22,473 nt of DNA from Boseongicola sp. SB0675_bin_26 (GTDB taxonomy: Bacteria; Pseudomonadota; Alphaproteobacteria; Rhodobacterales; Rhodobacteraceae), in contig VYCX01000497.1 in assembly GCA_009843725.1 (NCBI GenBank), forward strand, positions 1 through 22,473, written 5' to 3'. Shown in pieces: positions 4,226-21,251 of this stretch. The notes beneath the pieces were generated by a model. The model did no database searches. It was not told where the DNA came from and worked only from the letters and a program-made list of their open reading frames with translations. The position numbers were made by a program, and so were the translations under genes. Position 1 is the first letter of the stretch, and every line of letters starts with the position of its first letter.

Positions 4226-5722
4226 ATCGCCGATCTCTCCGTGTACCCCGATCGAATTCGATGAAGAGGGGATCGAGAAGCGGATATCGGACATCGTCGA
4301 ATCGGCGCGATGGGCCCGGCAGGCCGGGCATGACGGAGTCAAGTTGATGGGATCCGAAGGCTATCCGCTGAACCAGTTCCTCGTGACCCTCACCAGCAAG
4401 AGGGCGGACCGCTGGGGCGGTTCCTTCGAAAACCGGATGCGACTGCCGGTCGAAGTCTTGCGTCGGGTGCGGCAGGCGACAGGGCCCGACTTCATGCTGA
4501 TCTGCCGCTTGAGCATGATCGACCTCGTGCCAGACGGCTCGAACTGGGCCGAAGTCGCCAAACTGGCCAAGGCCGTAGAGGATGCTGGGGCCCGGCTCCT
4601 GAATTCCGGAATCGGGTGGCATGAAGCCCGGATCCCGACGATTGCCGCGAGCGTGCCCCGCCGCGCATTTTCTTGGGTCACGAAGAAGCCCATGGGACAG
4701 GTCGGGATACCGGCAATTGCGTCGAACCGGATCAACGCGCCCGAGGCGGCGGAGGCGATCCTGACGGAAGGTGCCGCGGACCTGGTTTCGATGGCCCGGC
4801 CCTTTCTTGCGGATCCGGACTTCATGAGAAAGGCGCGTGACGCAAGGTCTGCCGAGATCACGCCCTGCATCGCATGCAACCAGGCATGCCTTGATTTCAT
4901 CTTCGAGCCGAAGATCGCGACATGTGTCGTCAATCCGCAGGCGGCGCACGAATCCGAACTGATCTATTGTCCGGCGAGCAAGCCGAAATCGGTCGCGGTC
5001 GTGGCCGCAGGCCCAGCTGGACTTTCCGTTGCGCTGGCTGCGGCCGAATGGGGTCATGTGGTGACAGAGTTAACACGGTTTCGAAGAGGTTGTTGTGGCC
5101 ACGGGCGTCATGCCCAGGAATCCGAACATTTCGGTCGAAGGCGGTCGCGTGGTGAGCTGCGCCGGCATCCTGACGGGAAAGGAAGTGGCAGGAGAACGGG
5201 TGGCGATCATGGGAGCCGGAGACATCGGCTTCGATGTTGCAGAATTCCTGACCGTGGAGCCAAATTCGACCGCAAATCTCGACGCCTGGCTCGATGAATG
5301 GGGCGTGACGGATCCGGAATTGCATCGGGCAGGCCTTGCCCAAGATGGGGCGAATCCGGCGCACCGGCTGCGGCAGGTTTCCTTGTTCCAGCGGAAGGAC
5401 GAGCGACCAGGAAGGCGGCTTGGCCGCACGACAGGATGGATTCATCGCACGTCGCTTCGGATGAATGGTGTTCGGATGGAAGGTGGCGTCACGTACGAGA
5501 AGGTCGACTCTGATGACCTTCACATCACGCGTCGGGACGGTGCGCGCGAGGTTGTTCCCGCCGATACCGTTGTGCTCTGCACCGGGCAGCTGAGCGACCG
5601 TGCCCTTGCAGATGCGCTCATCGCTTGCGGTGCGTCGCCGCATGTCATTGGCGGCGCCGATTTGGCGTCCGGGCTGGACGCCAGACGGGCAATGGATCAG
5701 GGCGCGCGTCTGGCGGCCCGCC
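4226..5722 (+). pseudogene. fadH: Decayed NADPH-dependent 2,4-dienoyl-CoA reductase
   Basis: Intact FadH (about 670 aa; FMN barrel, 4Fe-4S cluster, FAD and NADPH domains) reduces 2,4-dienoyl-CoA during beta-oxidation of unsaturated fatty acids. Similarity begins near 4226 (SPISPCTPIEFDEEGIEKR; a TGA lies just upstream in frame), so roughly the first 150 residues are missing. It runs through MGSEGYPLNQFLVTL, RWGGSFENRM and NSGIGWHEARIPTIA to the 4Fe-4S cysteines CIACNQACLDFIFEPKIATC. The FAD motif reads AAGPAGL where GAGPAGL is expected. Near 5065-5080 about 60 residues are lost and the frame changes. It resumes with FEEVVVATGVMPR and GAGDIGFDVAEFL and ends at MDQGARLAARL (about 5722) without the natural stop. 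The continuation of the open frame to 6159 is not FadH. Confidence 0.87.
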
Positions 5723-6151
5723 TTTGGGCCGACTCCAGAACTCGGCTGAAGAACTTTTGCTCGTCTTGTTCCCGCGCCGGGAAGTGTGGTCGCATGATCG
5801 CCGCAGCAATCCAACTCGCGGTGCCGGGTAAGGCGACGCTCATGAATTGCGTCCCGATGCGCGTGCGGGAGGTGTCGAGACGGTCGCTATTGCTGTCTGT
5901 TCGCATGTGGCCGGCCTTGGATCGGACGGATCGCGGGGACGCGCCGAACGGCTTGCGGAACCCGGATGACCTCCGATTCAGTACGCCCTTGATTGGCCGC
6001 ATCGACACCCACGAAATTCGCGATGTGCGGTCGCGTACCGACCATCCCCGTTGCATGGAAGAAGCGCAGGCAGAGCCGGCTGCGTCACCATGGAGGTGGC
6101 GCTGGGTGAAAACATCTGGACTCGTCATCCATCTGATGTTTAGATTTGCCA
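5723..6151. other. Gap between the fadH relic and the GntR gene
   Basis: No recognisable gene is seen on either strand. The frame from the fadH relic runs on but loses similarity. The last 50 nt form the upstream region of the GntR-family gene and contain a 7-bp inverted repeat (6110-6141). Confidence 0.5.
6110..6141. promoter_or_regulatory. Possible operator: AAACATC ... GATGTTT upstream of the GntR gene
   Basis: The 7-bp arms at 6110-6116 and 6135-6141 are exact reverse complements, 18 nt apart, and end 10 nt before the regulator's ATG. The same heptamer AAACATC occurs again at 7066-7072 beside the importer's ribosome site. Position favours autoregulation, but characterised FadR-type operators usually have shorter spacing. 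Confidence 0.3.
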
Positions 6152-6925
6152 ATGAGTGAGTTGCTCTACTACGACCTGAAGGATGCGGCCGGCGTCGTTC
6201 CCAGCTTGGCAACCCAGGTCTGCCGGGAGCTCGGCCGTCGAATCGTGGCGGGCCACTTGCGCGAAGGCGAGCTGATCGACGACGAGAACAGGCTTTGCGA
6301 GCGGTTCGGAGTCAGCAAGTCGGTGATCCGTGAAGCGGTGAAACTGCTGGTTGGAAAAGGCATGCTGGAAGTGCGACGCGGCCACGGTACCCGGGTGCGG
6401 CGGCGGGCAAGCTGGAACCTGCTCGACGACGACGTGCTGGCCTGGCACCAAGGTTTCGAGCCAAGGTCGGACTTTCTGCGTCAACTCATGGATGTCCGGC
6501 AGGTGATCGAGCCAAACGCGGCTGCTTGGGCCGCACGATCTGCGACAGAGGCTCAGATTGCCGCAGTTCGTCTGGCACAGGCGAACATGGAAGGGGCACC
6601 GTCCGTGCAGGATTTCGTGGTGGCAGATGCCCAGTTTCACAGGGCAGTGCTCCGGGCAGCGAACAATGAAGTGCTGATGGCGATGGAGGGAGTCATCTTT
6701 TCCTCGTTGCTCAGCTCGATCCGCTTGACCAACGCGGACCCGCGCGACAACAAGCGTTCAGTGCCACTGCACCGAAAGGTCCTCAATGCCATCGAAGCTC
6801 GCGATGCCGAAGCGGCGTCGAATGCGATGAAGGAGCACTTGGAGGACACGCGCGCGCGCCTCGCTGGCGCCTTGTCTGCCAAGGACACCAAGGGAGGACA
6901 TCGACACCTGCGGGATCGAACTTGA
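6152..6925 (+). CDS. GntR-family transcriptional regulator, FadR/FCD subgroup (DgoR-like)
   Basis: This 257-residue DNA-binding protein probably represses the sugar cluster that follows it and releases DNA on binding a sugar-acid metabolite. The N-terminal winged helix covers about residues 15-80 (ELIDDENRLCERFGVSKSVIREAVKLL, then VRRGHGTRVR). The linker WNLLDDDVLAWH is typical of DgoR-type regulators. The C-terminal FCD domain keeps the metal-binding pattern: D and H in DAQFHRAVL, H in LHRKVLNAIEARD, and H in MKEHLEDT. ATG 6152 was preferred to the in-frame TTG at 6146. It is co-oriented with the importer genes 160 nt downstream, and a hairpin lies between them. The effector is inferred only from neighbours. 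Confidence 0.92.
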   Translation: MSELLYYDLKDAAGVVPSLATQVCRELGRRIVAGHLREGELIDDENRLCERFGVSKSVIREAVKLLVGKGMLEVRRGHGTRVRRRASWNLLDDDVLAWHQGFEPRSDFLRQLMDVRQVIEPNAAAWAARSATEAQIAAVRLAQANMEGAPSVQDFVVADAQFHRAVLRAANNEVLMAMEGVIFSSLLSSIRLTNADPRDNKRSVPLHRKVLNAIEARDAEAASNAMKEHLEDTRARLAGALSAKDTKGGHRHLRDRT

Positions 6926-6970
6926 CGCACAGCAACAAGACACGCGCCTGATTGGTGGTCAGGCTAGTGG

Positions 6971-7011
6971 TGGCGGCTTGAGACAAGCTGGAAACCAGGC
7001 TCAAGCCGCCA
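6971..7011. promoter_or_regulatory. Nested hairpin in the leader of the sugar cluster
   Basis: A 12-bp perfect stem (TGGCGGCTTGAG at 6971-6982 with CTCAAGCCGCCA at 7000-7011) encloses a second 4-bp stem, CTGG-AAA-CCAG, offset by a small bulge. It lies 45 nt after the GntR stop and about 77 nt before the importer's start. No T run follows. It could end or attenuate transcription from the regulator, process the transcript, or act as a protein-binding site. Confidence 0.6.
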
Positions 7012-7048
7012 GATCGCCCTGAAAATGGGAGAGTACCACCAGACGATC

Positions 7049-7068
7049 CGGCGCCGAAAGCGCCGAAA
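7049..7068 (+). repeat. Tandem 9-mer and hairpin next to the ribosome-binding site
   Basis: GCGCCGAAA is repeated twice without a gap (7051-7059, 7060-7068). The same bases form a 6-bp stem CGGCGC/GCGCCG with a CGAAA loop (7049-7065), ending 11 nt before the Shine-Dalgarno sequence at 7077. It could affect translation initiation of the binding protein or mRNA stability. Confidence 0.45.
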
Positions 7069-7076
7069 CATCCATG

Positions 7077-7082
7077 AGGAGG
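7077..7082 (+). promoter_or_regulatory. Ribosome-binding site AGGAGG that selects ATG 7088
   Basis: The perfect AGGAGG is only 2 nt from the first in-frame ATG (7085) but 5 nt from the second (7088), so 7088 is the better start. The longer frame from 7025 is not needed and would spoil the signal peptide. Confidence 0.75.
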
Positions 7083-7087
7083 ATATG

Positions 7088-8149
7088 ATGATTCCCAAAC
7101 TGAAGAAAGGCCTGTTGGCAGGAGCCATCGCGACATCCGCGCTGGCCACGGCAGGGACCGCAACGGCTGCGGACATGGTGGCGCTCCTGCTGCCGGAGAA
7201 CGTGAACCCGCGCTGGGAACAGCAGGACGCAGCTGCGTTTCTTGCGACCATGGCCGAGATCGCGCCTGACATAAGAGTTGAGGTGTTCAATGCGAACAAT
7301 GACACCGCCACCCAGCAACGTCAGGCGGAGCAAGCCTTGACCCAAGGCGCGAAAGTGCTTGTGGTGATCCCCATCGACGGCGAAAGCTCGGCCATCATCG
7401 CCGACACTGCTGCCGAGGAAGGCGTGCCTACGATCGCCTACGACCGCATGATCAATTCAGCCAATACTACGTTCTGGGTTCAGGCCGATCTGGAAGGCAT
7501 GGGCTACGACCAGGCGATGCATGTGATCGAGAACACAATGGACGGCGACACCCTGGTGCTTCTCAAGGGATCCCCCACCGATCCCAATGCCGCGGTAATT
7601 CACAACGGGCAGCTTCGTGCACTTCAGTCGCTTTTCGATAGCGGCAAGCGGGTCATGGGCTACGAAAACTGGACCCCTGGCTGGGATCCGGCAATTGCGC
7701 GGCGCTCCATGGACCAGGCGCTGACGCAACTCAACAACAACGTGCAGGGCGTGGTTTCTTCCAATGACGGGAATGCGGGTGCAGCCATTGCCGCGATGGA
7801 AGAACAGGGCATGGCTGGCACCGTCCCGGTCTCGGGTCTCGACTGTACCGTGCAAGCCCAGCAATTGATGCTTCTAGGGAAGCAGACGCAGTGTGGCTGG
7901 CGTCCGCTGGCTGACATGGCCGATGCCGCTGCACGGGTAACGGTCCGCCTGGTGAACGGCGAAGATTTCTCGGATCTTGCGCCGCAGACCGTGGTCAACG
8001 GCGTTGGCGCCGAAGTGGCCTATGTCCCGGTCGGTTCATATTCGGCCGTGGGCGCGGATGGCGTCGCCTACGTGATCGAAAACGATCCTTCGATCACAAA
8101 GGAAATGGTCTGCCAGGGCGAAGCCGCGGCAACCGGATTCTGCCAGTAG
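7088..8149 (+). CDS. Sugar ABC transporter periplasmic substrate-binding protein (XylF/RbsB type)
   Basis: This 353-residue protein captures a monosaccharide or related compound in the periplasm and delivers it to the permease encoded two genes downstream. A signal peptide is clear: KLKK, a hydrophobic stretch, and ATATAAD, with cleavage near residue 27-28. The mature part is a type-1 periplasmic-binding fold: AEQALTQGAKVLVVIPIDGE, the hinge-region PTIAYDRMI, LVLLKGSPTDPNA, GVVSSNDGNAGAAIAAMEEQG and PVSGLDCTVQ match the XylF-like pattern. Three C-terminal cysteines (CGW, VCQG, FCQ) plus the one in LDCT could form disulfides. It is first in the importer operon and 12 nt from the ATPase gene. 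The ligand cannot be determined from sequence. Confidence 0.94.
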   Translation: MIPKLKKGLLAGAIATSALATAGTATAADMVALLLPENVNPRWEQQDAAAFLATMAEIAPDIRVEVFNANNDTATQQRQAEQALTQGAKVLVVIPIDGESSAIIADTAAEEGVPTIAYDRMINSANTTFWVQADLEGMGYDQAMHVIENTMDGDTLVLLKGSPTDPNAAVIHNGQLRALQSLFDSGKRVMGYENWTPGWDPAIARRSMDQALTQLNNNVQGVVSSNDGNAGAAIAAMEEQGMAGTVPVSGLDCTVQAQQLMLLGKQTQCGWRPLADMADAAARVTVRLVNGEDFSDLAPQTVVNGVGAEVAYVPVGSYSAVGADGVAYVIENDPSITKEMVCQGEAAATGFCQ

Positions 8150-8161
8150 TCAGGACCTTCG

Positions 8162-8977
8162 ATGGGACCCGAGAGCAACAAGGTGGGGCATTCTGCCCCA
8201 CCTGCACATCTGAGCGTGCGCGGCATCCAGAAACGATTCGGGGGCGTTCATGCCTTGCGTGGAGTGGACTTTGAGGTCGCTCGCGGCGAGGTCATGGCGC
8301 TTGTCGGCGACAATGGAGCAGGAAAGTCAACGCTCATGAAAGTGCTCGCGGGCGCCTATGTCGCCGACGAGGGACAGTTCTTCCTCGATGGTGCCAACGT
8401 CAGCGTCAACAACCCGAACGATGCCGCCGATCTGGGAATTCAAATTGTCTACCAGGATCTTGCATTGTGCGAGAATCTCGATGTTGCCGCCAACCTGTCG
8501 CTCGGGTCGGAACCGGTGAAACCGGGCTGGACAATTCTGCCTCGCATTCTGCGCCCGCTGGATGACCTCGAGATGGAGGTCAAGGCAAAGGAGGCCTTCG
8601 ACAAGCTTGAGGTCCGGACATTGCAGTCGGTGCGGGCGAAGGTCGGCGGACTTTCCGGCGGACAACGTCAGGCGATCGCGATCGCGCGCGCGGTCGGGGC
8701 GGACAGCACCGTCGTAATGCTCGACGAGCCTACCGCCGCGCTTGGCGTGGCGCAGACACGGCAGGTGCTGGAGGTGGTCAAGCGTCTGCGCGAGACGAAC
8801 CACGCGGTCGTCTACATTTCGCACAACATGCGTGACATCTTCGACGTCGCCGACCGCATATGCGTTCTTCGCCACGGCGGCAATGTCGCAACCTACCAGC
8901 GTTCCGACACGACTCCCGACGAAATCGTGGTCGCGATGACACGTGGTCGTGCCAGTGAGGTCAATGATGCAGCCTGA
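8162..8977 (+). CDS. Sugar ABC transporter ATP-binding protein, single-domain (FrcA-like)
   Basis: This 271-residue cytoplasmic ATPase powers sugar import. All motifs are intact: Walker A GDNGAGKST, Q-loop region QIVYQDLALCENLD, signature LSGGQRQAIAIARA, Walker B VVMLDEPTAALG, and switch histidine in VYISHN. It has one nucleotide-binding domain, unlike the double RbsA/XylG forms, so it presumably acts as a homodimer as in FrcA-type systems. The ATG lies 12 nt after the binding-protein stop, and the 3' end overlaps the permease start by about 11 nt, indicating one transcript and coupled translation. Confidence 0.95.
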   Translation: MGPESNKVGHSAPPAHLSVRGIQKRFGGVHALRGVDFEVARGEVMALVGDNGAGKSTLMKVLAGAYVADEGQFFLDGANVSVNNPNDAADLGIQIVYQDLALCENLDVAANLSLGSEPVKPGWTILPRILRPLDDLEMEVKAKEAFDKLEVRTLQSVRAKVGGLSGGQRQAIAIARAVGADSTVVMLDEPTAALGVAQTRQVLEVVKRLRETNHAVVYISHNMRDIFDVADRICVLRHGGNVATYQRSDTTPDEIVVAMTRGRASEVNDAA

Positions 8978-10187
8978 CGGCAAGATTTCCGTGCTCGACC
9001 GCTTTCGGACAATGCGCGAAACTCGCATCGGATCATTCGCGCCCGTGCTGCTGGCATTGGCGGCGATCTGGGCCTGGTTTGGACTGGCGCTTCCACTCTG
9101 GGACCTTGCGTCAGGCGAGGCCGACGGCTTCCGCGCGATTTTTCTGAGCCCGCGCAACATCTACAACCTGTTCATGCAGTCAGCGCTGATCGCCACGTTG
9201 GCTGTGGGAATTACAACCGTGCTCCTGCTTGGCGAAATCGACTTGTCCGCGGCGGCAACCGCTGGGGTGTGCGCAGCGCTCTTGGGCGTTATGGTGCTGG
9301 CCGGCGTGCCAGGATGGCTTGCTTGCTTGATCGTGATGGCCATCGGCGTCGTGATGGGGGCAGCGCAGGGCGTGCTGGTCGCCTATATCGGCATTCCCTC
9401 CTTCGTCGTCACGCTAGCCGGTCTCCTTGGTTATCAAGGCTTGATGCAGAAGATCCTGCCGACGGGGAACCTGAACGTTGGCGACCCGTTCGTTCGAGGC
9501 TTCACGCGTGTGCTGATTCCGGACATCTGGGGGCTGGCGCTCGGGACGCTCTGCATCTTGCTCTTTGCTTATGCGAGCCTGCAAAAGCAGGCTCGGCGGC
9601 GCGCACTTGGGCTGGAGGTTGACCCACCGCTTGCCCTCTGGGGACAGGTGCTGGCCTTTGGCACAATCGTGATTGCCGTGATCTTGACGCTCAATGCCTA
9701 TCGCTCCTTGCCGCTCTTGCTGGTCCTGCTCGTCGGGATCACCACGCTCCTTGGCTGGATCACGACATCCACACCGTTCGGGCGCTCGCTCTTCGCCGTT
9801 GGCGGCAACGCCGAAAGCGCACGTCGCGCTGGCTTCAATGTCAATCGGATCCGCGTGGCGGCATTTGGGATCGTAGGGCTGATGGCGGCTATCGGTGGCA
9901 TCTTCGGGGCATCTCGATTTGGATCGGTGTCTTACACAGCCTTTGCAGGCGGCTCGCTTCTGCTGGAAGCCATCGGCGCGGCCGTCATTGGTGGGACCTC
10001 GCTTTTCGGCGGACGCGGCTCGGTATGGAACGCAATACTTGGCGCACTTGTGATCGGATCGCTCGGCAACGGGCTCGATCTGACCGGCGCAAGTGCCGCT
10101 GACAAGCTCATGGTTTCAGGAGCGATCTTGATCCTTGCCGTGGCCATTGACGCACTGTCGAGAAGAGACGGCAGTGTGGGACAGTAG
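8967..10187 (+). CDS. Sugar ABC transporter permease (XylH/RbsC type)
   Basis: This 406-residue integral membrane protein forms the sugar channel. There are about ten hydrophobic segments; the family-specific stretches are TLAVGITTVLLLGEIDLSAA, GIPSFVVTLAGLLGYQGLM, the loop FAVGGNAESARRAGFNVNRI and the terminal IGAAVIGGTSLFGGRGS. ATG 8967 was chosen (6 nt after GTGAGG) over ATG 8964 and the upstream GTG 8943. The start overlaps the ATPase stop. The next gene begins 9 nt after the stop, so importer and dehydrogenase genes belong to one operon. Confidence 0.94.
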   Translation: MQPDGKISVLDRFRTMRETRIGSFAPVLLALAAIWAWFGLALPLWDLASGEADGFRAIFLSPRNIYNLFMQSALIATLAVGITTVLLLGEIDLSAAATAGVCAALLGVMVLAGVPGWLACLIVMAIGVVMGAAQGVLVAYIGIPSFVVTLAGLLGYQGLMQKILPTGNLNVGDPFVRGFTRVLIPDIWGLALGTLCILLFAYASLQKQARRRALGLEVDPPLALWGQVLAFGTIVIAVILTLNAYRSLPLLLVLLVGITTLLGWITTSTPFGRSLFAVGGNAESARRAGFNVNRIRVAAFGIVGLMAAIGGIFGASRFGSVSYTAFAGGSLLLEAIGAAVIGGTSLFGGRGSVWNAILGALVIGSLGNGLDLTGASAADKLMVSGAILILAVAIDALSRRDGSVGQ

Positions 10188-10196
10188 GAGTTCGGA

Positions 10197-10676
10197 ATGG
10201 CCGACTTCCCCATGCCGCCAAAGGAGCGCCACTTGCTTGCCTCGATCCTTGACCAACTGATTCCGGGCAGTTGCGAAAGGAACATTCCCGGTGCCGGCGA
10301 AACTGGAGTTGCCGACTACTTGGCGCACGTGGCCGCACGCAGGTCCCGTTTCGATACTGCGCTAAGGCGGCTGCTGGCCCGGGCGTCAGAACTTGCGGAC
10401 GGTATCGACTCCGATGCCATTCGCCGGCTCGAGCAATCCATGCCGATGGAATTCGCGGAGCTTCTCACCGAAACCTACAAGGGATACTACAGCCGCCCGG
10501 ACATGCGCGCCAAAGTCGGCGTTGGTGCGCACCCGGTTCACCCTTCGGGATATGAGGTTGCCCAAGAAAGCGCAGAATTCATGGACAGTCTCGTTGAACC
10601 TGTCCGGGCTCGCGGGCCGTTCTACCGTGATCCGAGCAAAGCCGGAGGTGGCCGAGATGGCGAGCGATCCGGTTGA
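10197..10676 (+). CDS. Small subunit of a GMC-type dehydrogenase (gluconate 2-dehydrogenase subunit 3-like)
   Basis: The 159-residue protein sits immediately before the FAD subunit and overlaps it by 20 nt. Its N-terminal half (LLASILDQLIPGS, IPGAGETGVADYL) resembles the gluconate 2-dehydrogenase subunit 3 family, small partners needed for maturation or export of GMC dehydrogenases. Many family members carry a Tat signal peptide; this one starts MADFPMPPKERHLL and has none. The enzyme may therefore stay in the cytoplasm or be carried by another protein. Family assignment is from pattern memory and position; length is near the usual range. Confidence 0.72.
   Translation: MADFPMPPKERHLLASILDQLIPGSCERNIPGAGETGVADYLAHVAARRSRFDTALRRLLARASELADGIDSDAIRRLEQSMPMEFAELLTETYKGYYSRPDMRAKVGVGAHPVHPSGYEVAQESAEFMDSLVEPVRARGPFYRDPSKAGGGRDGERSG
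10644..10648 (+). promoter_or_regulatory. Ribosome-binding site GGAGG fixing the FAD-subunit start at 10657
   Basis: GGAGG lies 8 nt before ATG 10657, which is directly followed by the FAD-binding strand. The open frame reaches back to 10393, but that part only overlaps the small-subunit gene in another frame. Confidence 0.7.
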
Positions 10677-12276
10677 CGTGCTGATCGTGGGCGCCGGCGC
10701 TTCGGGTGCGGCAATCGCCTGGTCGCTGCTGGAGACGCGGATGCGAATCCTGTGCCTGGAACAGGGTGATCACCTGCAGGACAGCGACTTTCCTTCACGA
10801 CGCGATGACTACGAGCTGGCGCGATACGCCGAGTTTTCCTGCGACCCGAATGTACGAAAATTGAAACAGGATTATCCGATCAACTCGGAAGGCAGTTGCA
10901 TCACTCCGGTGAACTGGAACGGCGTGGGCGGTTCCACGATCAACTTCCTGGGTCACTGGCCGCGGATGAAGCCTTCGGACTTCCGGACAAGATCCTTGGA
11001 CGGCGTGGGCGAGGATTGGCCTTTGGACTATCATGACCTGGCCCCATTCTATGACATGAACGACGCCAATACCGGGGTGTCGGGTCTGGGCGGCAATCCG
11101 GCGTACCCTGACTACACGCCGCCGTTGCCACCCATTCCAATAGGCAAGCTGGGTCAGACACTTGCCATGGGGTTCAACAGGCTCGGTTGGCATTGGTGGC
11201 CGTCGGATGTCGCGATTCTCAGTCTGGATCACGACGGCCGGCAGCGTTGCGTCAATGCTGGCACCTGTGATCTGGGCTGCGCAGCCGGAGCCAAAGGCGG
11301 AACAAATTTCACCTACTGGCCGGTGCTCGAAAACGCTGGCGTCGAATTGCGAACCAATGCGCGGGTTCGGGAAATTCTCGTGGACAGGAACACGGGTCTT
11401 GCCAAGGGCGTGCTCTACCACGGGTCCGACGGACAGGTGCATGAGCAAAGGGCCGAAATGGTGGTCATGGCCTGCAATGGCGTGGGAACGCCACGCATGT
11501 TGCTGCATTCAACCTCCAGGCTCTTTCCCGATGGTCTTGCCAACCGTTCAGGACTGGTCGGAAAGAACCTGATGTTCCACCCGTTGACCGGTATTTCAGG
11601 TGTCTTCGACGAGCCGATGAAGGGACACGAGGGACCCATGGCGTGCTCGATACTCAGCCAGGAATTCTACGAATCCGATCCCTCGCGAGGATTTGTCCGC
11701 GGTTATGGCCTGCATTCAGGCCGCTCCACAACGCCGATGACCTATGCTCTCGGCGGATTCGGAATCGACGACCCGATCCCTTGGGGCGCCGAACACCGCG
11801 AGATCATGGACAATGTCTATCCCTATCTTGCCGGGCTGACTGTGGTCACGGAGGATCTTCCTGAGGAGCACAACAGTGTCACTCTTGATCCGGAACTGAC
11901 TGACGGCGACGGAATTCCCGCACCAAGGATCAGCTACCGCTTGAGCGAGAACACCCGCGCCATGCTCAAGCACGGCGAGGATCGCGCCAATGAGGCACTT
12001 CTGGCAGCAGGGGCCAGGCGGATTCTCCCGAATGACAGCGACAAGGTCTGGAGGCGCGCCGGCTGGCATCAAATGGGCACCTGCCGGATGGGAAACGATC
12101 CCAAAAACTCGGTCGTTGACGGGTGGGGGAGGTCCCATGACGTGAAGAACCTCTTCATCGTCGATGGGTCCATCTTTGTGACGTCGGGTGCTGTCAACCC
12201 GACCGCGACGATTCAGGCGCTGGCTCTCTACATCGGCGACCGGATCAAGACCAATATCGGCAATCTCTTCGACTGA
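10657..12276 (+). CDS. GMC-family FAD-dependent sugar/polyol dehydrogenase, large subunit
   Basis: This 539-residue flavoprotein of the glucose-methanol-choline family probably oxidises the imported sugar or sugar acid to a lactone or keto form, passing electrons to an unknown acceptor. The FAD motif is VGAGASG (GxGxxG at 12-17), with LEQGD at the end of the second strand. GVGGSTINFLGHWPRM is the family's flavin-loop region. Cysteines 198, 204 and 208 (RCVNAGTCDLGCAAG) match the gluconate 2-dehydrogenase/fructose dehydrogenase branch. Catalytic His471 (GWHQMGTCRMG) and Asn514 (NPTATIQALA) are present. No signal peptide is seen, and no cytochrome c subunit is encoded next to it. ATG 10657 with its ribosome site sets the start. 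Confidence 0.93.
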   Translation: MASDPVDVLIVGAGASGAAIAWSLLETRMRILCLEQGDHLQDSDFPSRRDDYELARYAEFSCDPNVRKLKQDYPINSEGSCITPVNWNGVGGSTINFLGHWPRMKPSDFRTRSLDGVGEDWPLDYHDLAPFYDMNDANTGVSGLGGNPAYPDYTPPLPPIPIGKLGQTLAMGFNRLGWHWWPSDVAILSLDHDGRQRCVNAGTCDLGCAAGAKGGTNFTYWPVLENAGVELRTNARVREILVDRNTGLAKGVLYHGSDGQVHEQRAEMVVMACNGVGTPRMLLHSTSRLFPDGLANRSGLVGKNLMFHPLTGISGVFDEPMKGHEGPMACSILSQEFYESDPSRGFVRGYGLHSGRSTTPMTYALGGFGIDDPIPWGAEHREIMDNVYPYLAGLTVVTEDLPEEHNSVTLDPELTDGDGIPAPRISYRLSENTRAMLKHGEDRANEALLAAGARRILPNDSDKVWRRAGWHQMGTCRMGNDPKNSVVDGWGRSHDVKNLFIVDGSIFVTSGAVNPTATIQALALYIGDRIKTNIGNLFD

Positions 12277-12284
12277 GGTGAACC

Positions 12285-12542
12285 ATGGACTTTCCAACCA
12301 GAACGTGTGTCGCTGGCGGGCCGTCAGATAGTCAGGGACACCCGGGGCCCATGAACCCGGGCACGGAAGGGCCCGGCGATCCCGTCCAGACCGCATTCAC
12401 GGAGGATGTCGACCTTGCGTGGCAGACGGACGGGGAGTCCTTCCCCGCAGAACCCGAAGTGTCGGAGCATCACGACCCCGCGGTCACGAGGCGCATGCCC
12501 GGCGCGCCGCGCGCTGATCGACTCGAAGGGGTGAGTGCATGA
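12285..12542 (+). CDS. Small ORF of unknown function between dehydrogenase and cycloisomerase
   Basis: An 85-residue frame starts at ATG 12285, 4 nt after GAGGTG, and its stop overlaps the next gene's start as ATGA. It fills an otherwise unusually long 262-nt gap within a tight operon. The product is polar, rich in Pro, Gly, Glu and Asp, with no membrane segment or recognised domain. CCCGGG-rich inverted segments around 12340-12380 could fold in the mRNA. Three readings are open: a true small protein, a leftover of a lost operon gene, or a structured spacer. Confidence 0.38.
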   Translation: MDFPTRTCVAGGPSDSQGHPGPMNPGTEGPGDPVQTAFTEDVDLAWQTDGESFPAEPEVSEHHDPAVTRRMPGAPRADRLEGVSA

Positions 12543-13708
12543 AAATCACCCGAGTAACCAGCCACGTTCTGCAATATGACCTGCCGGAAGAACTTGGATA
12601 TTCCCAGCAATTCTATGCGCGCCGAACCGCCCATCTGGTCAAGGTCGAGACCGATGAGGGCGTCACCGGCTGGGGCGAGTGTTTCGGCCCGGGCAACGTG
12701 GCGCTCGCAAACAAGGGGATAGTCGAAAAGGTCATTCAGCCCATGGTGATTGGCGATGACCCGATGGACCGGGACGTGACTTGGCACAAGGTCTATAATC
12801 TCCTGCGCGACCATGGACAGAAAGGTATGCCGCTTCAGGCACTTTCCGGGGTCGACATCGCGCTATGGGACATTGCTGGCAAGGTCGCCGGACTGCCGCT
12901 TCACAAGCTGATCGGGGGCGCGCATCGAACCCGCATTCCCGCCTACGGCTATGGCATGATGCTCAAGCGCGAGAGTCTGGAGGATCACATTGCACGGTTT
13001 GGCGATGAAGCGGCCGGAATCCTCGACATGGGATTCCGCTCCGTCAAGATGAAGGTGGGGCTGGGCCCGAAGGCAGACGTGAAGCTGTGCGAAGCAGTCG
13101 CTGCAGCCGTTGCCGGCAGGGGCCGTTTCATGGTCGACGCAAACCGCTGCTACACCACGTCAGACGCCTTCCATGTGGGACGTGCACTGGAAGAACTCGG
13201 CGCATATTGGTTCGAAGAGCCGGTCGCGCCCGAGGATCTCGACGGCTACCGGGAACTGCGAACAGGACTCAAGGTCAACATCTCGGGTGGCGAGGCTGAG
13301 TTCAACCGATGGGGCTGGCGGCAGATCCTGGAGAATCGCGGGCTTGACATCGCCCAGCCCGAGGTTTGTGCCTTGGGAGGAGTCAGCGAATATCTGCGCG
13401 TTCTGGCACTTGCGCACGCGCACTTCACGCCAGTCGTCAATCATGTCTGGGGTTCGGCCATCGCGGTGGCTACGAACCTGCAGCTGCTTGCCGCCATGCC
13501 CGCGATGCCTGGCGGGCTCAATCCGTGCGAGCCGATGCTGGAATTCGACACGACCCACAACGCATTTCGGGACGAATTGCTGTCCGAGCCGCTGAACATT
13601 CAGGGCCAGGTCAAGTCAGGAAACGGCTATGTGAACGTGCCCGACCGTCCCGGACTTGGAGTGGAGCCTGACGCGGAATTCGTTCGCCACTATGAAGTCG
13701 CCTGCTGA
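12539..13708 (+). CDS. Enolase-superfamily enzyme, mandelate-racemase group (galactarolactone cycloisomerase-like)
   Basis: The 389-residue enzyme is predicted to abstract a proton next to a carboxylate, using a bound Mg2+, to isomerise or dehydrate a sugar acid or its lactone. The N-terminal capping domain contains VTGWGECFGPGN and QALSGVDIALWDIAGK. In the barrel, Lys170/Lys172 (VKMKVGLG), metal ligands Asp200 (VDANRCY), Glu226/227 (FEEPV) and Glu252 (SGGEAEF), and His302 (NHVWGSAIA) are in place. From memory the layout resembles galactarolactone or 3,6-anhydrogalactonate cycloisomerases (LRDHGQKG, EPMLEFDTTHNAFR). The start overlaps the preceding frame by ATGA. It closes the sugar operon. 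Exact substrate is unproven. Confidence 0.9.
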   Translation: MKITRVTSHVLQYDLPEELGYSQQFYARRTAHLVKVETDEGVTGWGECFGPGNVALANKGIVEKVIQPMVIGDDPMDRDVTWHKVYNLLRDHGQKGMPLQALSGVDIALWDIAGKVAGLPLHKLIGGAHRTRIPAYGYGMMLKRESLEDHIARFGDEAAGILDMGFRSVKMKVGLGPKADVKLCEAVAAAVAGRGRFMVDANRCYTTSDAFHVGRALEELGAYWFEEPVAPEDLDGYRELRTGLKVNISGGEAEFNRWGWRQILENRGLDIAQPEVCALGGVSEYLRVLALAHAHFTPVVNHVWGSAIAVATNLQLLAAMPAMPGGLNPCEPMLEFDTTHNAFRDELLSEPLNIQGQVKSGNGYVNVPDRPGLGVEPDAEFVRHYEVAC

Positions 13709-20947: not shown

Positions 20948-21251
20948 CCGGTGAAGTGCTTCTGCGCGTGCCATGGTTCCTTGACCCCGGGATGCCCCAC
21001 TTCGCCTCACCAATTCGGCTGATGGGTGCTGCCTTCGAACCATAAGGCAGTCTCGGCGCATCCGATCAAACCCATTTCAAGGTCCAATCGCCCGGCCCAT
21101 GCATGCCGCTTCCGACGCTTCGCCTGACACCTCGCGATGTCCGACGCACGGCTCGCGGTGAAAGTGGTGGTTAGCCTTTCCTTCCTGCGGGACTTTCACC
21201 CGCTGCACTCACGCCTGTTGACCTTGCGCACCCTATGTTGGGTTCAGGCCA
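20948..21251. other. Unassigned spacer with a small hairpin
   Basis: No gene recognised. The stretch 21087-21245 contains a GCGGG/CCCGC hairpin (21187-21203) and has the look of a conserved non-coding mobile-element border, but I cannot name it. Confidence 0.4.

Follow-up and report, generated by a model that had tools for sequence, protein, structure and literature searches.

The window analysed here, i.e., the whole stretch of 22,473 nucleotides from Boseongicola sp. SB0675_bin_26 (contig VYCX01000497.1, our C14; assembly of 4.14 Mb in 574 contigs), carries an operon for a GntR/FCD regulator, a sugar importer of the ABC type, a flavin adenine dinucleotide (FAD)-dependent GMC dehydrogenase with a small partner protein, and a cycloisomerase of the enolase superfamily (the enolase in the following). 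For the most part, the operon follows a known route: it represents a variant of the dau pathway, which degrades 3,6-anhydro-D-galactose (D-AHG), a constituent of kappa- and iota-carrageenan in red seaweed, and differs from it by a putative GMC oxidation step and a conserved leader RNA outside Rfam 15. The dau kinship of regulator and cycloisomerase, a DauA-like enzyme in relatives, and a kinase and an aldolase in the genome make uptake and entry of D-AHG or a very close anhydrosugar the most likely function, with the GMC enzyme replacing DauA; we give this reading about even chances. All functions named below are predicted from sequence, and papers given by PMC number are cited from extracts.

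Kinship with the dau pathway

In the proven route, DauA oxidises D-AHG and DauB opens the acid to 2-keto-3-deoxygalactonate, followed by a kinase and an aldolase (PMC5698469). The regulator of the window shows 51% and 53% identity to two regulators encoded next to dauABCD in Pseudoalteromonas carrageenovora (locus L092, strain KCTC 22325, whose dau cluster was matched by gene order and neighbours; the dau genes were named in strain 9T, PMC6262041) and 48-53% identity to the regulators of five DauA-only loci. Its best solved chain is 7c7e (99.7 bits). For the enolase, the identity to the dau-cluster cycloisomerase of P. carrageenovora, a species that grows on D-AHG (PMC6262041), amounts to 65%. 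Its nearest solved relatives are 4ggb (300 bits) and then 5olc (267 bits), i.e., a galactarolactone cycloisomerase and a 3,6-anhydro-D-galactonate cycloisomerase, respectively (PMC5698469). When aligned to the residues named in that paper, the catalytic K172 and H302 as well as the metal ligands D200, E226 and E252 are kept. Residue 203, three residues past a metal ligand, is Arg in the window and L010, and His in L009 and 42 other dau-type rows.

A DauA-like enzyme is found in relatives: the aldehyde dehydrogenase of the L012 operon, the sole one tested, has its best match in 6pnu/6pop (576 bits, followed by 317 bits for the next one). Both structures are among the deposits listed in the report on the activity and structure of DauA (PMC6923384). 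In the window genome, a 2-keto-3-deoxygalactonate kinase (DGOK 3.6e-95) adjoins an aldolase (Aldolase 5.3e-29) on contig C107, with a lactonase-like frame beside the pair (identified by eye), which suggests that the missing last steps are provided in trans. Among the 29 compared loci with a GMC gene (see below), the kinase directly follows the enolase in five, three of which also have the aldolase; in the Sulfitobacter SK012 plasmid operon the order is enolase, kinase, aldolase.

These results revise a sequence-only reading of the window. Its statement that no later kinase or aldolase is present is correct for the window and wrong for the genome, where the two genes lie side by side. That reading names neither the deleted dehydrogenase nor the leader RNA. 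The proposed succession of import, FAD-linked oxidation and cycloisomerisation is the likely logic, while the route that was called undescribed is mostly the described dau pathway, given the kinship of regulator, cycloisomerase and the relatives' DauA-like enzyme. Close orthologues with a proven pathway, named there as a ground for giving up the idea, exist by half: the proven DauB is only 37% identical, on the other hand the species of the 65% relative grows on the sugar. Neither the GMC step nor this gene order in Alphaproteobacteria was found in the literature searched, which covers few subscription journals.

Conservation of the gene order

We scanned GTDB contigs with the window enolase and, of 194 relatives, retained the 80 best, to which four further loci from plasmids were added, such that, including the window, 85 loci were compared. 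A GMC gene is present in 29 of them; 19 of these carry a DauA-type aldehyde dehydrogenase between it and the enolase, and 10 do not. A DauA-type dehydrogenase but no GMC is present in another 15/85 loci, some of which are broken or lie at contig ends (L016, L022, L038, L046, L082), and 18/85 have none of GMC, DauA-type or TRAP transporter genes. Binding protein, ATPase and permease lie upstream of the GMC gene in 27/29 loci; in the remaining two, a contig end interrupts the locus. Within an order-level sample of 390 genomes (own included), binding protein (E cut-off 1e-120) and GMC enzyme (1e-230) occur in the same 5 genomes, the enolase (1e-170) in 36 including all 5, and the DauA-type enzyme (1e-170) in 7. 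In the family sample, 8 of 149 genomes have GMC matches (E ≤1e-150), 5 of these with at least 76% identity. The order is kept well beyond chance, so the refutation that the sequence-only reading named first, a gene order that is not conserved, does not apply. Since the operon is patchy and plasmid-borne in three cases (Paracoccus, Sulfitobacter, Roseibium), it probably moves between genomes.

The enolases closest to that of the window stem from loci in metagenome-assembled genomes labelled Silicimonas (96%) and Rhodobacter (89%). Among the window, L009 and L010, all of which are without the dehydrogenase, the ratio of nonsynonymous to synonymous substitution rates (dN/dS) ranges from 0.04 to 0.12 in six genes and from 0.22 to 0.27 in the small subunit (whose ends in L009 and L010 are overrun by a few codons), i.e., the rest of the operon is under purifying selection.

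Loss of the DauA-type dehydrogenase

The set had been described as intact, which is not borne out: an aldehyde dehydrogenase gene separates GMC and enolase in 19 of the 29 GMC loci, and the window retains only an N-terminal remnant of this gene. The start of its 262-base gap is matched by the relatives' DauA-type proteins with up to 42% identity over 55 amino acids (E 1.4e-9, from a database of ten GMC-enolase gaps only), and the match begins at the relatives' distance after the GMC stop. The L009 gap matches too and that of L010 weakly, while the gaps of L044 and L050 contain a C-terminal DauA-type piece with a stop. Judged by eye, the L031 and L045 gaps start DauA-like and the former also ends so. 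In 8/10 GMC-only loci, an open frame starts 8 or 11 bases downstream of the first base of the GMC stop, and in 5/10 (window, L009, L045, L047, L066) the gap frame reaches a stop that overlaps the enolase ATG; taken singly, locus by locus, the gap frames are not significant (P 0.04-0.61). In L115 (genome G021, outside the 85-locus set), about 30 bases separate GMC and enolase.

Erosion often left an open frame and the old start position, as observed for the window, L009, L010, L031, L045, L047 and L066. Perhaps such remnant frames are kept for translational coupling.

On the enolase tree (quick method, SH-aLRT branch support only, many weak forks), the GMC-only status requires 5 changes, at least 4 of which are forced by starred branches. 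No aldehyde dehydrogenase with more than 38% identity to the L012 DauA-type query is present in 8/10 GMC-only genomes; the best one of the window genome shows 38%, and DauA itself is left there as a remnant only. A Zobellia dauA mutant does not grow on D-AHG, with no other dehydrogenase acting in its place (PMC5698469), so that the pathway should fail once DauA is lost and nothing replaces it.

GMC dehydrogenase and small partner

The nearest solved relatives of the GMC enzyme are FAD glucose and fructose dehydrogenases. Aligned to 6a2u, His471 and Cys198, 204 and 208 are found in 28/28 GMC rows and Asn514 in at least 90%; we take the His/Asn pair to be catalytic and the three Cys to form a cysteine cluster. 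A cytochrome c subunit is not among the operon genes, and no export signal was seen by eye in the GMC enzyme or the small partner. The latter scores 20.6 bits against Gluconate_2-dh3 (cut-off 23.4). Two of its annotated relatives are named 'gluconate 2-dehydrogenase subunit 3 family protein' and one 'hypothetical'; its GYYSRPD and PVRARG stretches are conserved, and it is complete in L009 and L010. The two-subunit GMC dehydrogenase of the sequence-only reading is thus plausible, with the profile match falling short of the cut-off.

GMC is present wherever the importer is seen (27/27 loci, 5/5 genomes), DauA is absent beside it in 10/29 loci from several lineages, and nothing replaced DauA in Zobellia. 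In GMC-only loci, most of the oxidation of the imported sugar is thus probably due to the GMC enzyme, which would act on the aldehyde directly or carry out two oxidations starting from an alcohol.

An Agrobacterium plasmid operon (L105 7905-13686) encodes a 46% identical GMC relative, the small subunit, a hypothetical protein, the alpha subunit of an electron-transfer flavoprotein and an Fe-S protein. With the last two neighbours, it hints at a route by which cytosolic GMC enzymes may pass on electrons.

A covarying leader RNA before the binding-protein gene

The gap between regulator and importer holds a structured RNA, which was met via shared words during an operator search. Its plan consists of P1, a long P2, a small hairpin, CCACC, P4, ribosome binding site and start codon (Table 1). 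A P1 stem of five or more pairs with GGTGG in the loop occurs in 13/14 training leaders, the stems of which differ widely (L014 shows 3 pairs). A covariance model run on 93 sources of 1.77 Mb gave 19 matches with E ≤2.3e-5, each directly before a binding-protein gene and including 5 that were not used for training. The two matches that follow are partial, with E 0.71 and 0.82.

In the alignment of these 19 leaders, which is fitted to the covariance model, 87.7% of cells pair, and both partners change in 16/27 pairs. The covariation value is 0.310 compared to 0.172 for shuffled alignments (0/500 as high), and slid structures reach at most 0.084. A free alignment of 14 leaders shows the same tendency (0.258 vs. 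0.168 shuffled, 0/500). Neither alignment contains more pair types than its shuffles. The leaders also contain nearly invariant unpaired segments. Single-sequence folding yields z-scores of -2 or below in 7/14 leaders (window -4.2, L090 -4.1) and is unremarkable in others (L014 -0.9, L030 -0.5); P1 is not part of every best fold.

A pseudoknot between the P1 loop and CCACC is likely. Its pairs show no both-sided change within the 19 leaders. Outside the model, a sequence-blind scan found complementary arms in L030 (GGCGG/CCGCC, 3/60 shuffles as good), L089 (TCTGGCG/CGCCAGA, 1/60) and L032 (GGCAATG/CATTGCC, 0/60). Counting the 19 model matches and these three blind cases, the plan is present in 22/28 readable leaders. 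A short form in L077 (3294-3383) is without P2 and P4 and keeps P1, CCACC and ribosome binding site; possibly it represents the minimal core.

In 9/22 leaders, as counted without shuffle comparison, an ACATC-like stretch (ATATC-like in one leader and GCATC-like in another) forms a stem of 7-9 base pairs with the start-codon region, around the ribosome binding site. The respective stem of the window has 4 base pairs only. A stem over ribosome binding site and start codon suggests translational control by the leader, which may be weaker or different in the window.

Rfam 15 gives no match at gathering on the leader; the best weak match is C4 on the other strand (24.4 vs. 45 bits). No report of the leader was found in the literature searched, including the extracts of PMC2864571 and PMC8632094. 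With a covarying structure in the 5' leader, it qualifies as a riboswitch candidate.

Annotated features and importer

The gene list and coordinates of the sequence-only reading hold, i.e., seven open frames on the forward strand from 6152 to 13708. Table 1 combines them with the leader elements and the dehydrogenase remnant. The binding protein scores 202.6 bits against the xylF model, below the equivalog cut-off of 389.55, and has 3m9w as best solved chain; the permease reaches 228.5 bits against the GguB model (cut-off 450).

Table 1. Genes and predicted RNA elements of the operon (window coordinates).
Feature	Position	Strand	Evidence
GntR/FCD regulator, DauR/DgoR-like	6152..6925	+	FCD 8e-29, GntR 9.3e-15
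Structured leader RNA	6942..7090	+	covariation, covariance-model matches, complementary pseudoknot arms
P1 hairpin, GGTGG loop	6946-6964	+	covariation
P2 hairpin, long	6971-7011	+	covariation
CCACC	7036-7040	+	likely pseudoknot arm pairing with P1 loop GGTGG
P4 hairpin	7050-7064	+	covariation
Ribosome binding site and start codons	7078-7090	+	
Periplasmic sugar-binding protein, XylF-like	7085..8149	+	Peripla_BP_4 4.4e-46; start at ATGATG
Single-domain ABC ATPase	8162..8977	+	ABC_tran 1.1e-29, one domain in 271 aa
ABC permease, GguB-like	8943..10187	+	BPD_transp_2 1.7e-26
Small GMC partner, subunit-3-like, 159 aa	10197..10676	+	in 28/29 GMC loci
FAD-dependent GMC dehydrogenase	10657..12276	+	GMC_oxred_C 1.2e-28, GMC_oxred_N 1.2e-12
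DauA-type dehydrogenase remnant	12285..12542	+	85-codon open frame; stop overlaps cycloisomerase ATG
DauB-type cycloisomerase, enolase superfamily (MR/MLE)	12539..13708	+	MR_MLE_C 4e-55

Proposed mechanism and alternatives

From these data we infer a substrate, the GMC reaction with its electron acceptor, and RNA control of binding-protein translation. Regulator and leader RNA would control the operon, and the XylF-like ABC importer would bring the sugar in. The cytosolic GMC enzyme and its small partner may then oxidise it, finally to 3,6-anhydro-D-galactonate, in place of the NAD(P)-dependent DauA, the gene of which is eroded to a remnant; the electron acceptor is perhaps an electron-transfer flavoprotein. 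The DauB-type cycloisomerase is predicted to open the anhydro ring, giving 2-keto-3-deoxy-D-galactonate, which the kinase and aldolase encoded on C107 would convert to pyruvate and glyceraldehyde-3-phosphate.

Several observations weigh against D-AHG as the substrate or against the GMC enzyme in place of DauA. The enolase is about equally distant from the galactarolactone cycloisomerase Gci (42%) and the proven DauB (37%), and the genome contains no GH127 or GH16 family match. Sulfatase genes are near 8/15 DauA-only, 2/19 GMC+DauA and 0/10 GMC-only loci. A second cycloisomerase with 77% identity is located between TRAP transporter genes of the same genome (L116, G000:C438, 1382-2545) and perhaps belongs to a route that imports the sugar acid itself. 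Together with the TRAP genes found in 23/85 loci, this copy indicates that close relatives may serve another acid. The substrate identity is thus the weakest claim at the protein level, since the 77% identical enolase lies among TRAP genes and GMC operons are seldom near sulfatases (2/29). As to the oxidation step, both enzymes are kept in 19/29 loci, i.e., GMC and DauA may not be equivalent. The L044 and L050 genomes encode a DauA-type enzyme (73%) elsewhere, and we also list here the one of G021 (60%), which has an internal stop. A generic aldehyde dehydrogenase could stand in for DauA, and several of the genomes compared are incomplete metagenome-assembled genomes.

If the two enzymes act in sequence, the importer would carry an alcohol form or another derivative of D-AHG, which GMC oxidises to the aldehyde and DauA or another aldehyde dehydrogenase to the acid, before the cycloisomerase acts. 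This would account for a GMC gene that always accompanies the importer while the dehydrogenase is repeatedly lost, and for the loci with both. In addition, operons of Hoeflea and Neorhizobium (L102, L104) combine a GMC enzyme of 56-57% identity and the small subunit with a 2oo6-like MR/MLE enzyme, another aldehyde dehydrogenase and a different sugar importer, which speaks against GMC-DauA equivalence. We nevertheless consider a sequential route unlikely: in lineages lacking the dehydrogenase the operon stays under strong selection, although most of them have no DauA-type gene elsewhere, and the Zobellia mutant found no replacement. Even less do we expect another aldose or a uronate as substrate, for which the enolase would serve as a galactarolactone cycloisomerase or a sugar-acid dehydratase. 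While 4ggb as best solved match ahead of 5olc, the identities to Gci and DauB, the likeness of the binding protein to D-xylose-binding proteins and the second enolase in a TRAP operon are in line with such a substrate, D-AHG is favoured by the relatedness of the regulator and by a DauA-type enzyme next to the enolase, and neither a uronate dehydrogenase nor a lactonase was seen among the operon genes.

The leader might also not sense a ligand at all, i.e., it may stabilise the binding-protein mRNA, insulate it from the regulator gene, or melt with temperature. Binding proteins are often required in excess over the rest of their operon. RNA thermometers before ABC transporter genes have been published (PMC11342760, PMC12857270). 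On the other hand, near-invariant unpaired segments, pseudoknot arms that differ in sequence yet remain complementary and the start-codon stem (9/22) resemble an aptamer with expression platform, and no thermometer family is among the weak Rfam matches. A leader without ligand is, in our view, quite possible, if somewhat short of an even chance. The most far-reaching version of the D-AHG reading is that the leader forms a new riboswitch class that senses D-AHG or the derived acid and switches importer translation, which, with GMC in place of DauA, would make up a second, previously unseen scavenging route for carrageenan sugar in marine Alphaproteobacteria. As a whole, we deem this version rather doubtful.

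Use of D-AHG has been described for polysaccharide degraders (PMC5698469, PMC6262041, PMC6923384). If Rhodobacterales, Roseibium, Granulosicoccus and others take up the sugar through such a patchily distributed operon that stands by itself, they would join these degraders as scavengers of what other organisms release. The operon also provides an FAD-linked alternative to DauA that can be tested. The compact leader, with pseudoknot arms complementary despite sequence change, is a candidate for a new riboswitch class. Furthermore, the repeated erosion of the dehydrogenase, often to a frame that ends in the next start codon, provides a possible case study of gene death in operons.

Apart from the operon, the window harbours an Old-yellow-enzyme/BaiCD-like gene spread over two overlapping frames (4227-6156), which matches only the C-terminal half of Oxidored_FMN and looks broken, as well as a group II intron domain match on the reverse strand (20975-21196, RF02005, 137.7 bits).

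Comparison with known systems

XylFGH and multiple-sugar (GguB) importers provide the best-matching models for binding protein and permease, but both proteins of the window stay well under the family cut-offs, and its ATPase has one domain instead of two. With FAD glucose/fructose dehydrogenases (6a2u, 7w2j), the GMC enzyme shares the fold, the aligned His and Asn, and three aligned Cys. In contrast to these complexes, the operon has no cytochrome subunit gene, no export signal is seen, and its small subunit is distantly similar if at all. The Agrobacterium Gci (4ggb) has fold family and catalytic residues in common with the window enolase at 42% identity, whereas the gene context differs and the P. 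carrageenovora dau enzyme is far closer (65%).

Among short pseudoknotted riboswitches, the S-adenosylmethionine/S-adenosylhomocysteine (SAM/SAH) riboswitch of Rhodobacterales, for example, likewise occupies a 5' leader by the ribosome binding site, combines a hairpin with a pseudoknot and occurs in the same order, as far as described in the extracts of PMC7367207 and PMC2864571. Compared to it, the window leader is larger, has other conserved bases, precedes other genes and has no Rfam match at gathering. Finally, the operon shares with dauABCD of Zobellia galactanivorans and Pseudoalteromonas the kin of the GntR regulator (Pseudoalteromonas), the DauB-type enzyme, the DauA-type enzyme of its relatives, and the genomic kinase and aldolase. 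Compared to that system, it comes without carrageenan-degrading genes, has DauA deleted, and adds an ABC importer, the GMC enzyme with its small subunit, and the leader RNA.

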